From Pantoea eucrina (lineage in GTDB: Bacteria > Pseudomonadota > Gammaproteobacteria > Enterobacterales > Enterobacteriaceae), in the NCBI RefSeq assembly GCF_001691555.1, contig NZ_MAYN01000008.1, positions 2,466,766 to 2,530,765 of the forward strand: DNA of 64,000 bases, given 5' to 3'. The number at the start of each line of letters is the position of its first letter. Within the stretch, counting starts at the first letter, position 1. The notes beneath the pieces were generated by a model that was given only the letters and a program-made list of their open reading frames with translations, was not told the origin of the DNA and did no database searches. Position numbers and translations under genes: made by a program. Positions 6,417-52,775 of this stretch are shown one piece after another.

Positions 6417-6540
6417 GTAACGTTAACCAATACCTGACAGCTGCTTTTTACTTCAACTAACCATAACAGCAGCAGTCGCTTTTTCCCTGGTGTTGGCGCA
6501 GTATTCGCGCACCCCGGTTTCGACCGGGGTCATTTTTTTT
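6417..6540 (+). ncRNA. arcZ: Hfq-dependent small RNA ArcZ
   Basis: The 3' part (about 6482-6540) is almost identical to the conserved part of E. coli ArcZ: TTTCCCTGGTGTTGGCGCAG at 6482-6501, then GTATTCGCGC, then a CCCCGGTTTCGACCGGGG terminator stem and eight Ts ending at 6540. This includes the seed by which ArcZ activates rpoS and represses flhD and other targets. The 5' end is an estimate, placed just after an extended -10 (TGCTAAGGT) so that the RNA would be about 120 nt. As in E. coli, the gene lies beside and opposite arcB; in E. coli ArcA represses arcZ. The T tail overlaps the arcB stop codon. Confidence 0.9.
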
Positions 6541-48602: not shown

Positions 48603-48780
48603 CGCACCCTCCGGCTTAACAGCCTGTTCCTGAGTGGCCACTGTAGCGCAGGAGATTTATCCCTTAATTAGCGAAGAATTAGCGCAGAATTAGCAAAGCG
48701 GGCAGCGGCAAAAATTCAGCGGCGATAATTGTTTGCTAATAAAGCGGCGTTACACTGCCCGACACTGATAAGGAGACTCC

Positions 48781-49440
48781 ATGCGCGTGCTGCTGGTAGA
48801 AGATGATGAAATGATTGGTGCCAACCTGCAGCAGGCGCTGGAAGCTGCAGGCTGGTCGGTAGACTGGGTGCGCGACGGCCGGTTTGCCTCGCACGCCTGG
48901 TCGGAAAGCAATTACACCTGTGTGCTGCTCGACCTTGGCCTGCCGCGTGAGGATGGTCTCGACGTACTGCGGCGCGCCCGCGCGCGCGGTGATATGACGC
49001 CGGTACTGGTGCTGACCGCCAGGGACAGCGTCGCCCAGCGCATTCAGGGGCTGGATAGCGGCGCGGATGATTACCTGCTCAAGCCTTTTGATCTGCAGGA
49101 AGTGTTTGCGCGTATGCGTGCCATCACCCGGCGCCGCCACGGTGCCGCCGACTCGCTGCTCGGCAGCGGCGACGTGCAGCTGGATATGATGACGCGGGAA
49201 GTGCTCTATAAGGGCCAGCGTGAACAGCTCACCGCTCGCGAATATGCCCTGCTCTATGCGTTGCTGGAGCGACCCGGTGCGATCCTCTCACGCGAGCAGC
49301 TGGAGAATCGCATCTATGGCTGGGGCGAAGAAGTCACCAGCAACGCCGTTGATGTGCTGATCCACGGTATGCGGCGCAAACTGGGGAACGAAGCGATCCG
49401 CAACGTTCGCGGCCTTGGCTGGCGGGTACCGGCACAATGA
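48781..49440 (+). CDS. OmpR-family response regulator, QseB/PmrA-like
   Basis: Encodes 219 residues. The receiver domain has phospho-acceptor D51 (LLDLGLPREDG), acidic pocket E7-D8-D9 and lysine in LLKPFDL; the C-terminal winged helix has LTAREYALLYALLERPGAILSREQLENRIYGWGEEVTSNAVDVLIHGMRRKLG, typical of QseB/PmrA. Its kinase overlaps it by four bases (ATGA). The signal is unknown; a QseBC identity is possible but not shown. Confidence 0.9.
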   Translation: MRVLLVEDDEMIGANLQQALEAAGWSVDWVRDGRFASHAWSESNYTCVLLDLGLPREDGLDVLRRARARGDMTPVLVLTARDSVAQRIQGLDSGADDYLLKPFDLQEVFARMRAITRRRHGAADSLLGSGDVQLDMMTREVLYKGQREQLTAREYALLYALLERPGAILSREQLENRIYGWGEEVTSNAVDVLIHGMRRKLGNEAIRNVRGLGWRVPAQ

Positions 49441-50795
49441 AAAATTTTACGTTTCTGCGCTCTCTGCGCAATAAGCTGCTAATGAGCCTGGTGCTGCTGC
49501 ATCTGGCGATGATTGGTGGCGTGACCTGGTACTTCTTTCACTGCTACGGCGACATGATGGGCTCGATGAAAGACGATCAGCTCGCAAAAGTGGCCGACGT
49601 CTGGTCAGCCAGCCAGACAATGCCCGCGCTGATGCCGATGATCCTCGATCAGGACAGGCTTAAAAGCGCTTATATCGTCCAGCTGTGGGATACGCATCAT
49701 CAGCTGCGCGCCAGCTCGTGGCCGGCGCTGCAGGCACCGCTGCAGCCGGTTCACGGCTGGTCCGATTTGCGTCTTGGCGACTGCGGTGACGACTGTGAAT
49801 GGCGCGTCTATACCCGTCCCGGCGAAGCGGGCAGTGAAATCGGCACCGTGCAGGTGCTGCATAATATCGGCTACATGAAAAGCCTGATGGTGAAGCGCGT
49901 GCTGTCGGCGGTGATCCCGCTGATCCTGATGATGCCACTGTCGCTGCTGCTGATCTGGCTGATCGTACGCGCCATTACGCGCAATCTGCTGGTGGCGTCC
50001 AGGCAGATCGCGGCGCAGGAGAGCCTGCATCCGCATACGGTGTCGCCGGATGGCCTGCCTGACGAAGTGCTGCCGCTGGTCGCCGCCTACAATGCGCTGC
50101 TGGACAAACTGCGCGCCGCCTGGTCCGCCCAGCGGCAGTTTCTGGAGGACGCCGCACACGAGCTGCGCACGCCGGTTACCGCCGTTACGCTGCAGCTGGA
50201 GAATCTGCGACAGCATATTCAGCCTGGCGAGGCGCGCCGTCAGTTTGATCAGCTGGAAGCGGGCGTAACCCGCACCCGTCATCTGGTGACACAGCTGCTG
50301 GATGTGTCACGCCAGGAGGATCGCTCCGCGGTTCCGGCAGCGGAAACGATCGAGATCGACGATCTGCTGAAGGAGAGTATTGAACAGCTGATGGTGGTTG
50401 CCGATAAGCGCGGCATCGATATTGGCTATAGCGGCAGCGCACGTTACCGCCTGCAGGCCAGCCGTTCTGAACTGCGCACCCTGTTTGATAACGTTATCGG
50501 TAACGCCATGCTGCATACGCCTGAAGGAAGCCTGGTGGATGTGCTGCTGCACCGCGCAGACGATCGCATTGTGGTGGATATCGTCGATAACGGTTCCGGC
50601 ATGCCGGAGTCGTTTCTGGATCGGGCGTTTGATCGCTTTACCCGTTCGCCGGATGTGCAGGCGCAGGGCAGCGGTCTTGGCCTGTCGATTGTGCGCAGCG
50701 TGGCGCAAAAGCATCAGATGCAGGTGGCGCTGTCTAACTGTCTGACCCCGGAAGGTGAACGCTGCGGACTGCGGGTGCGGGTGACGCTGCCATAG
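49437..50795 (+). CDS. Sensor histidine kinase, QseC-like
   Basis: Encodes 452 residues. Two membrane segments (about 14-34 and 155-178) flank a 120-residue periplasmic domain containing two cysteines (GDCGDDC) that could form a disulfide or bind metal. A HAMP-like linker precedes the HisKA box with H241 (DAAHELRTPVTAV) and the HATPase motifs GNAML, DNGSGMP and GSGLGLSIV. It is translationally coupled to the response regulator. The family resembles QseC/TctE. The gene is followed at once by a 22-bp tandem repeat. Confidence 0.9.
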   Translation: MKNFTFLRSLRNKLLMSLVLLHLAMIGGVTWYFFHCYGDMMGSMKDDQLAKVADVWSASQTMPALMPMILDQDRLKSAYIVQLWDTHHQLRASSWPALQAPLQPVHGWSDLRLGDCGDDCEWRVYTRPGEAGSEIGTVQVLHNIGYMKSLMVKRVLSAVIPLILMMPLSLLLIWLIVRAITRNLLVASRQIAAQESLHPHTVSPDGLPDEVLPLVAAYNALLDKLRAAWSAQRQFLEDAAHELRTPVTAVTLQLENLRQHIQPGEARRQFDQLEAGVTRTRHLVTQLLDVSRQEDRSAVPAAETIEIDDLLKESIEQLMVVADKRGIDIGYSGSARYRLQASRSELRTLFDNVIGNAMLHTPEGSLVDVLLHRADDRIVVDIVDNGSGMPESFLDRAFDRFTRSPDVQAQGSGLGLSIVRSVAQKHQMQVALSNCLTPEGERCGLRVRVTLP

Positions 50796-50799
50796 CACG

Positions 50800-50887
50800 C
50801 GGTGCGCTTAGCCGCACGGAGCGGTGCGCTTAGCCGCGCGGAGCGGTGCGCTTAGCCGCGCGGAGCGGTGCGTTTAGCCGCGCGGGG
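50800..50887. repeat. Tandem array, four copies of a 22-bp unit
   Basis: Unit CGGTGCGCTTAGCCGCGCGG plus AG. Copies start at 50800, 50822, 50844 and 50866. Copies 2 and 3 are identical; copy 1 differs at one base (GCAC for GCGC) and copy 4 at two (TTTAG, and GGGG end). Each contains an imperfect dyad (GCG...CGC). The array starts five bases after the kinase stop. Confidence 0.92.
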
Positions 50888-51486
50888 GCTGTGCGCCTGG
50901 CAGCGCGGGACTCTGAGGGGGTTCCGCCCGCCGGGCTTCTGGCAGTTTCAGCGGCATTACCGCACGCGGACGGGCTAAGGGGCGGGTGGGCGCGCCCCTT
51001 AGCAATCCCCGCCCCGCGCCGTCCTCGCGAATTCCCGGACGCATCCCTCCGGCCTTAACGGACCGCGCGGATTCGCTCCTGCTCACTCCGCGCTCTCGCC
51101 GGCGTCCTGCCGGCTCGCCCTGGCCGTCACGCTGCGCCCGGCGCTGCGGATAGCGCCCCCTCTCCCCGCCTGCAAACCCTTCATTTTGTTTTTTAAAAAT
51201 GTTGTGGTGTGGTCTGAAGCGTTTTCACGAAACCTTCAGCCATAAAAAATTCGAGAAAGAGAAAAAAAGCAGCAGCCGGGGGAAGCGCCATCCGGGTCCG
51301 CCGAGGGAGGGCGCGATTCCGGGATGAGCCGACAGGACGTAGGCGAAAGGGCGCGGTGAGCAGGAGCGAATGGCGGCCGGTCCCCGGGAAGCGGGCATGA
51401 GCGAGGGAACCGCGCAGCGGCGGACGGGGCTGGCGCAGGGCCGGGGAGTGCAGAGGGCGCGGCCTGGCGTCCTCTGCCCGGTCGCC

Positions 51487-51617
51487 GCGCCGGGGCAGAG
51501 GCAGCTGCCGCTGCTGACGGCGAACGGAACCGGTGCCTGTCCCGGAACCGGTGCCTGTCCCGGAACCTCCGCCCCGGGGCACAGGCTGCCGCCGCCGCTG
51601 ACGGCGAACGGAACCGG
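51487..51617. repeat. Nested direct repeats (about 47 bp twice, 18 bp twice)
   Basis: GCTGACGGCGAACGGAACCG plus G occurs exactly at 51513-51533 and 51597-51617; with the imperfectly matching bases to the left (GCGCCGGGGCAGAGGC and GCCCCGGGGCACAGGC) each repeat is about 47 bases. Between them GGAACCGGTGCCTGTCCC is perfectly repeated in tandem at 51526-51543 and 51544-51561, with the start of a third copy. Confidence 0.88.
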
Positions 51618-51696
51618 CGTCCGCGCCCCACTCCCAATCGTATCTCTTCGCGACCACGTAAACGGTTGCGGAGTTCCGTTCGCTGCAGATAGAATA

Positions 51697-51712
51697 TGTG
51701 ACAAGCCTCACA
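51697..51712 (+). promoter_or_regulatory. CRP-type site upstream of tsx
   Basis: TGTGACAAGCCTCACA is a perfect TGTGA-N6-TCACA palindrome, the cAMP-CRP consensus core. E. coli tsx has two CRP sites with CytR binding between them, which supports this assignment. Confidence 0.8.
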
Positions 51713-51748
51713 AAATAACTGAATCCTATTGCAACACTTTTTGACAAA

Positions 51749-51764
51749 TGTGATGAAAATCTAT
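51749..51764 (+). promoter_or_regulatory. Second, weaker CRP-type site of tsx
   Basis: TGTGATGAAAATCTAT matches the left CRP half-site fully and the right half partly (TCTAT for TCACA). Its centre is 52 bases from the first site, leaving room for a CytR site between them. It lies about 150 bases upstream of the tsx start. Confidence 0.55.
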
Positions 51765-51911
51765 TTTCTAACGCTCTGTTACAGGCACATTACGCGGGCC
51801 TGACGGCTGACAGTTCGCACGCGTTACCGCCGCATACTGCTCAATACCCGGGAACGTACTCATCCGATCGTGGCATTTCTGCGGCGATCCTCAGCAAGTG
51901 GTCAAACAATA

Positions 51912-52775
51912 ATGAAATTTAAATCGTTGATAGCAGGTGCATTACTGATTGGTAGCGGAATGGGCGCAGCGCAGGCAGAGAGCGATCCGCAATATCTTTC
52001 TGACTGGTGGCATCAGAGCGTAAACGTGGTGGGCAGTACCCATACCCGTTTCGGACCGCAGTTTAATAATGATGTCTATCTGGAATATGAAGCCTTTACC
52101 AAGCAGGAGTGGTTCGATTTTTACGGCTACATTGATTTGCCGAACTTCTTTGGCGCGGGCAACAGCAACGCAAATGGCATCTTCGATCACGGCACGCCGC
52201 TGTTTATGGAAATTGAGCCGCGCCTGTCACTGGACAAGCTGGCGGGTACCAGCCTGGCGTTCGGTCCGTTTAAAGAGTGGTTCTTTGCCAACAACTATAT
52301 TTACGACATGGGCCGCAACAGCGACAACCGTCAGAACACCTGGTATATGGGCCTCGGTACCGATATTGATACCCACAGCGACGTTGGTCTCTCGCTTAAC
52401 GTCTACGCCAAATATCAGTGGGAAAACTACGGCGCAGCCAACGAGAACAGCTGGGATGGCTACCGCTTCAAGGTAAAATACTTTGTGCCGATTACCGACC
52501 TGTGGGGCGGTAAGCTGAGCTATATCGGTTTTACCAACTTTGACTGGGGCTCCGATCTGCGTGACAAATCTGACCGCTCGCGCACCAGCAACTCGGTGGC
52601 CTCAAGCCATATCTTATCGCTGAACTACGACCACTGGCACGTCTCTGGCGTTGCGCGTTATTTCCATAACGGCGGTCAGTGGGCAGATGGTCAGGAGCTG
52701 AATTTTGGCAAGGGTCCGTTTGAAGTGAAATCAACCGGCTGGGGCTACTACCTGGTGGTGGGTTACAACTTCTGA
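51912..52775 (+). CDS. tsx: Nucleoside-specific outer-membrane channel Tsx
   Basis: Encodes 287 residues with a signal peptide ([22 protein letters not shown]). Tsx is a 12-strand beta barrel for nucleoside uptake and a phage and colicin receptor. [57 protein letters not shown] and the terminal [10 protein letters not shown] (C-terminal Phe for barrel assembly) are Tsx hallmarks. The ATG at 51912 fits E. coli. Two CRP-type sites lie upstream. Confidence 0.95.

Follow-up and report, generated by a model that had tools for sequence, protein, structure and literature searches.

A dispersed repeat of two inverted modules with conserved base pairing, related to TRIP1 of Escherichia coli, between a sensor kinase gene and tsx in Pantoea eucrina

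Dispersed chromosomal repeats that have a conserved fold and no coding capacity, the bcr repeats, occur in the Bacillus cereus group, a different lineage, and in these respects resemble the modules described here. Closer to the present case are the TRIP1 repeats of Escherichia coli (Rudd 1999, as cited by PMC10888264), which are already known. Excerpts of PMC10888264 describe them as GC-rich (62-65%) single units of 146-273 bp that are intergenic, lie 3' of genes, occur in several copies and have a very stable branched RNA fold, the "double Y"; TRIP1a and TRIP1c are reported in both directions, with rearrangements between copies, and it is proposed that TRIP1 is possibly transcribed to ncRNA. 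In the same excerpts, BIME RNAs of E. coli are reported to act by binding protein or nucleoid. REPs are 20-40 bp long and lie mostly between convergent and same-direction genes (excerpts of PMC3733652), and REP/BIME sequences are intergenic and structured, with neighbours often oppositely oriented (excerpts of PMC3733652; see also PMC2817692). TRIP is not mentioned in the excerpted text of PMC2267715, and the literature searched, which mostly excluded subscription papers, described neither a paired form of TRIP1 nor its covariation, and no relatives beyond E. coli.

The window analyzed here is a 64,000-nucleotide stretch of P. eucrina DNA from a genome of 3.94 Mb, whose genus also includes records named Pantoea. 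Between a sensor kinase gene (49437-50795) and the tsx ORF (51870-52775), which point in the same direction and both have Pfam matches, a first-pass annotation of the letters had marked about 0.8 kb (50888-51700) as lacking any believable gene. This absence was borne out, as the five overlapping ORFs of the stretch (70-184 aa) match no Pfam family at E 0.01. Its limits had to be redrawn: the gene-free repeat stretch, with 71% GC, begins with a tandem array four bases past the kinase stop and extends from about 50799 to about 51620. The higher GC content claimed for 50888-51700 was also found (68.5% versus 56.8% for the whole window), as were an exact 21-bp repeat at 51513 and 51597 and an 18-bp perfect tandem, whose positions 51526 and 51544 correspond to the TRF array in a different register. 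When the stretch was simulated 2000 times with a first-order Markov model, neither a repeated 21-mer nor a perfect 18-bp tandem arose in any run.

What fills the stretch is a single copy of a non-coding repeat that is dispersed in the genome; in it, two modules of about 245 nt, L and R, are inverted back to back around an AT-rich core (Table 1). The repeats noted earlier are the frayed module ends of this family, the nature of which is not visible from the window letters alone; the 21-bp repeat stems from the partial second copy of the R end. A 53-nt inverted repeat common to both modules had been missed. By eye, the core contains a hairpin, CTGAAG...CTTCAG, and the element's outer ends, GGTTCCGCCCGCC and GGCGAACGGAACC, are complementary at 11 of 13 positions; they could be read as terminal inverted repeats of a MITE, but L and R, being homologous, would end alike in any case. 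The strand favored by G-U pairs reads outward in both modules, from the core to 50920 in L and to 51525 in R. We built a covariance model, R1, from 41 sequences, 40 from the window's genus and one from Tatumella. Its only matches in the window are module L (50974-51147, minus strand, 104 bits) and module R (51295-51477, plus strand, 100 bits), the sequences of both being in the training set.

Table 1. Features of the window copy and positions of further sites.
Feature	Position	Strand	Basis and remarks
5' tandem array, 22-bp unit x 5.0 (GCGGTGCGCTTAGCCGCGCGGA)	50799..50908	.	TRF; frayed outer end of module L
Module L, ~245 nt	50920..51166	-	nhmmer, profile match ~50920-51157; fold
Inverted-repeat left arm, 53 nt, common to modules L and R	51071..51123	+	81% complementary to 51319-51371
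AT-rich core between modules	51167..51275	.	36% GC over 51177-51275
Module R, ~250 nt, inverted homologue of L	51276..51525	+	nhmmer, profile match ~51282-51530; fold
Inverted-repeat right arm, 53 nt	51319..51371	-	pairs with 51071-51123
3' tandem, 18-bp unit x 2.4 (CGGAACCGGTGCCTGTCC), the tandem of the first-pass annotation	51525..51567	.	TRF, period 18
Partial second copy of module R outer end, 49 nt	51569..51617	.	90% identical to 51485-51533
Further sites in the window's genome	C8:1743553, C8:487047, C8:2088577, C7:213595, C7:314244-315740		own-genome DNA search
Site with flanks common to five genomes	L101:3573-4605, L109:5028-5586, L171:5553-6278, L174:6658-7074, L187:806-1322		

Searching the window's own genome with 50760-51900 returned five more sites with pieces 81-98% identical, and both sites on C7 contain runs of N. 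Within the genus, a DNA search matched 29 of 36 genomes, and the same kind of search matched none of 24 genomes belonging to the order's other families. A 17-mer taken from the left block occurs as an exact match in 15 of 61 genus genomes, with 34 copies in genome G080, and its reversed control in none of the 61. In the loci we fetched, which were picked by exact pattern and best matches, the basic module is about 245 nt long and comes in the subtypes L and R, whose profiles recognize one another. Many of these loci are paired, composites consisting of L and R inverted around a core, and in Pantoea sp. RIT-PI-b (G028), G023, and G004 the loci often have single R modules with no L close by. Neighboring modules point outward in 110 of 118 pairs, inward in 3 and in tandem in 5, a count that includes some loci fetched twice. 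Several loci of Pantoea sp. Mb-10 carry extra copies of the outer 65 nt in tandem, of the same kind as the window's 21-bp repeat, and L052:1906-2143 is, by eye, an apparent R/L chimera. Copies within one genome are far more alike than copies between species, and the cores of composites differ in sequence between species; one core, in L060 (G003:C4), contains AAAACTC repeated many times in tandem. The element also explains assembly breaks in relatives, several of whose contigs stop within or next to it. As to carriers, five Pantoea plasmid records match, with no match among the phage records searched or, in two exact-pattern scans, among viral contigs.

We next consider the fold. Alignment A1, comprising 55 modules of the genus and one of Tatumella, yielded a fold of 67 pairs after gap-filtered folding; with gap columns left in, alifold on all modules was nearly structureless, and the tool folds had 29-40 pairs. 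The Tatumella sequence (L167, the same locus as L227), one of 104 stretches, entered A1, A4, and R1. In A1, 87.4% of cells are paired, against 76.7% in shuffled and 33-41% in slid alignments, and 360 cells show a two-sided change, against 143 in shuffled ones. A covariance analysis had been proposed by the first-pass annotation, and here the covariation score was 0.284 versus 0.133 (SD 0.005), a value reached by none of 500 shuffles; two of the five A1 measures beat shuffling weakly, with 49 of 500 shuffles as high for pairs with two-sided change and 21 of 500 for further pair types. The energy was -118.7 compared with -56.0 (SD 4.9) in 60 column shuffles. The same helices are built from different letters; R, for example, usually has UUC/GAA where L usually has GGC/GCC. 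For 30 sequences outside the training set, with a mean identity of 55.5% and aligned without structure, alifold gave -80.3 versus -22.9 (SD 3.6) in 40 column shuffles. Alignment A5 was fitted to the model and has 38 rows, four of them from E. coli and some from the genus Tatumella; two-sided changes are seen in 41 of its 46 pairs, and covariation is 0.520 versus 0.177. The base pairing is conserved by compensatory change, and to this extent only did the earlier suggestion of a structured RNA hold; the fold would act either as RNA or as DNA. None of 4227 Rfam covariance models matches the stretch at the gathering score, and with E up to 5 there were only four microRNA matches, far under the cut-offs (E 0.79-2.5).

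The DNA searches suggested that the element is restricted to one genus, a notion overturned by R1. With E up to 0.001, R1 matches occur in at least 133 of 392 genomes and at least 57 of 154 genera, own genus included, of a family that we take to be the Enterobacteriaceae of GTDB; no more than 6 candidates were scored in any genome. Two-module loci of other genera are outward in seven of nine cases and tandem in two, with none inward; three of the nine belong to the genus Tatumella, one of them being the training locus. In E. coli K-12, R1 matched TRIP1a (E 5.7e-11) and TRIP1c (E 4.5e-10) over the whole of the model and did not match the internally deleted TRIP1b. Within 100 kb of K-12 holding both loci, TRIP1a and TRIP1c were the top R1 matches (E 9e-10 and 7.1e-9), the third having an E of 0.08. 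A blastn search of E. coli genomes with the window element returned nothing at E 1e-5. Judged by sequence plus structure, TRIP1 is therefore a homologue of the window modules, its primary sequence having diverged to the point that the kinship is invisible to blastn, and because the two best R1 matches in these 100 kb are TRIP1a and TRIP1c, we regard the window element as a paired variant of the TRIP1 kind.

Like TRIP1 as described in the excerpts of PMC10888264, the window element is GC-rich (75-76% in its modules), intergenic near a gene 3' end and present in several copies; a very stable branched fold is common to L, R and, via R1, TRIP1a and TRIP1c; and orientation varies at the same site, with rearrangements between copies. 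In E. coli JCKP02, the lysO-aqpZ module is inverted relative to K-12 and the adjoining sequence is also different, and in E. coli A32 the copy is reversed and internally deleted. The element is nonetheless a variant and not a typical TRIP1 member. Where a TRIP1 site has one unit, at most 273 bp long, the window has two modules, a core and tandem ends, and copy number can exceed that of TRIP1, as seen in the 34 exact left-module tags of G080.

The first-pass annotation had also called for a comparison of the spacer in strains; across the genus, both occupied and module-free kinase-tsx spacers were seen. In 15 other genomes of the genus, compared out of 57 that matched, the matched ends lie 74-413 bp apart versus about 855 bp in the window, and the profiles and R1 found no module in these 15 spacers, one R1 match at E 0.67 being noise. 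In the sister genome G019, the kinase contig and the tsx contig each end in the element's outer-end sequence, and the array after the kinase is shorter than, and different from, that of the window; judging from these contig ends, the element probably occupies the site in G019 as well, the modules being absent from both contigs. In G080, in which the order is rearranged, the kinase and tsx each have a composite of their own, downstream of the former and ahead of the latter. The idea of a hypervariable spacer was thus upheld in part, inasmuch as all 15 spacers are without a module and the array differs between the window's genome and G019. The spacers are too diverged to place the junction or to define a target duplication. 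The kinase-tsx spacer of L194 (G074:C1:83800-84900) has, instead of the element, a 7-bp unit (GAGCCTT) repeated many times over. Upstream of tsx, window positions 51648-51685 hold a conserved ACGTAAACGGTTGCGG, followed in most compared species by GGTTCCGTTCGC (AGTTCCGTTCGC in the window). The GGTTCCGTTCGC-type part is the outer-end motif of the modules and is found in species with and without the element; it may be there by chance or may be a target motif.

In the sample, sites elsewhere in the genus turn over and flip, and few of them recur in more than one species. There are 41 cross-genome site pairs with both flanks in common; the two copies agree in orientation in 29 of these and are flipped in 12. 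Four of the flipped pairs involve one locus, L101, and this count, too, includes some loci fetched twice. G028 (34 entries) and G080 (37) have four sites in common by a shared-flank test that can miss sites with diverged flanks. Some sites are common to the distant species G022, G028, G080, and G034, which could reflect long retention. At one site, whose flanks are common to G080, G023, G028, G004, and G013 (Table 1), the modules in four of the five genomes are low-scoring and diverged, L174 having an ordinary R, and L101 is flipped relative to the others; this is possibly an old retained copy. We also looked at replication polarity. All 12 R tags on G022:C1 oppose the replication fork, with none between 0.44 and 2.68 Mb, but the seven exact left tags of G016, which are confined to the minus strand of the dnaA-dif interval, have the opposite sense to G022, and G069 is mixed. 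Polarity was dropped as a general property; the layout of G064, G006, and G069, in which dif was not found, is taken from dnaA.

We favor, with modest confidence, the view that the repeat is a selfish or near-neutral element whose copying depends on its fold, which survives between gene 3' ends and is reshaped by recombination. The fold of one strand would be needed for copying to new sites, the copying itself being done by a putative trans-acting factor or a recombination route. Most surviving copies would be those in gaps flanked by two gene 3' ends, as insertion there cuts off no promoter, and they would then be flipped, halved, and fused by recombination between copies. Copying is supported by the greater likeness of copies within than between genomes and by the existence of occupied and empty sites, and we infer its dependence on the fold from the covariation. 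Against a selfish repeat, the conserved multi-helix fold is more elaborate than passive spread would require and would suit a functional RNA equally. The two A1 measures that beat shuffling weakly, the sites common to distant species, and the negative results of the transposase, phage and viral-contig searches also count against it.

It is because of this fold that the main rival is attractive, namely that the two modules form a functional structured RNA pair, transcribed outward into RNAs that bind, for example, protein or the nucleoid, as reported for BIME RNAs. The strong covariation, the outward pairing of modules outside the genus as well, and the ncRNA transcription proposed for TRIP1 in the excerpts of PMC10888264 all speak for it, as does an excess of G-U over A-C on the outward strand. 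In helices chosen without G-U pairs, A1 has 131 G-U versus 43 A-C cells (28 versus 13 columns), and 30 sequences from other genera have 45 versus 23 (14 versus 6 columns). The excess leans to the outward strand but is modest; the cells of related sequences are not independent, and in other genera, both strands fold nearly equally well (-80.3 versus -79.2). Moreover, a sigma-70-like promoter was sought in 50700-51950 and none was found, core sequences differ between species, and the sampled sites turn over and flip. We consider a functional RNA pair possible but rather unlikely.

The preference for convergent gaps fits either the tolerance away from promoters assumed by the selfish-element reading or a role at gene ends. 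Under a third explanation, the element would insulate or terminate on both sides where the 3' ends of genes meet, and would be kept for stopping convergent transcription. Of 86 deduplicated genus sites, 55 are convergent, 27 tandem, and 4 divergent, and 26 of 31 single R modules lie in convergent gaps; among 221 gaps that lack the element and measure 60 bp or more, defined with a simple ORF caller, 26 are convergent, 120 tandem, and 75 divergent. The background gaps come from those of loci L086-L189 that span at least 6 kb, and the sites from these and L031-L085; placement p-values are indicative, given the dependence among sites of related genomes. Promoter avoidance alone would give the same placement bias, however, and the 23 loci from other genera comprise 9 convergent, 13 tandem, and 1 divergent. 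The window copy itself lies between same-direction genes, and no terminator-like hairpin with a T-run was found in 50700-51950, where shuffles gave a mean of 1.5. An insulator is accordingly improbable.

Mobilization of a REP/BIME cluster by a RAYT transposase is more doubtful still. Placement is similar to that of REPs (excerpts of PMC3733652), and REP-like palindromes GGTCGCCATNNATGGCG, tagged with GTAG at one end, border the majority of the aligned modules of RIT-PI-b and its relatives. Such palindromes adjoin modules in some Pantoea only, and none was seen at the element ends in the window's genome or in the G022 copies. A REP of 20-40 bp (excerpts of PMC3733652) is also far from a multi-branched module of about 245 nt, and instead of the tagged 20-40 bp end palindromes and RAYT gene of a REPtron, the window copy has tandem arrays at its ends. 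Y1_Tnp (PF01797, RAYT/IS200) occurs in 9 of 61 genus genomes, a survey in which no transposase was identified for the element. It is present in the sister G019 and, broken, in G022. A RAYT/IS200 agent is now very unlikely because Y1_Tnp is absent from six multi-copy genomes (the window's own, G000, and G028, G080, G023, G004, and G013), though G019 has one. At RIT-PI-b loci L066-L071, L089, L175, and others, palindromes GGTCGCCATNNATGGCGACC, GTAG-tagged at one end, bound the modules and also occur in the core.

The first-pass suggestion of a decayed protein gene, which the long minus-strand ORFs (184, 159, and 133 aa) might seem to favor, can be dismissed almost entirely, as there is no Pfam match, the same non-coding sequence recurs at the five further sites of the genome and keeps its pairing in other genera, the pattern of substitution in relatives is that of base pairs, and the module is missing from the spacer of 15 of 15 other genomes.

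We tentatively place the element in a wider frame, which may well prove wrong: a family-wide structured element whose fold of about 245 nt would be selected on one strand, whose positions turn over and flip, and whose outward pair would be either ancestral or active and bound by a putative trans-acting factor, a mobile or regulatory nucleic acid without a gene of its own. If true, this would be a family-wide class so far described only as a few odd repeats of E. coli. TRIP1, treated as a minor E. coli curiosity, is one branch of a structure-conserved repeat that has matches in at least 57 of 154 sampled genera. Function and spread therefore become testable with the covariation data, the high-copy strains, and the pairs of occupied and empty sites.

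Two further observations concern other parts of the window. An ArcZ sRNA lies at 6420-6524 on the plus strand (Rfam RF00081, 70.8 bits, just over the gathering score of 66), and an 11-bp tandem, AATTAGCGAAG x 3, is located at 48666-48698, upstream of the response-regulator gene.
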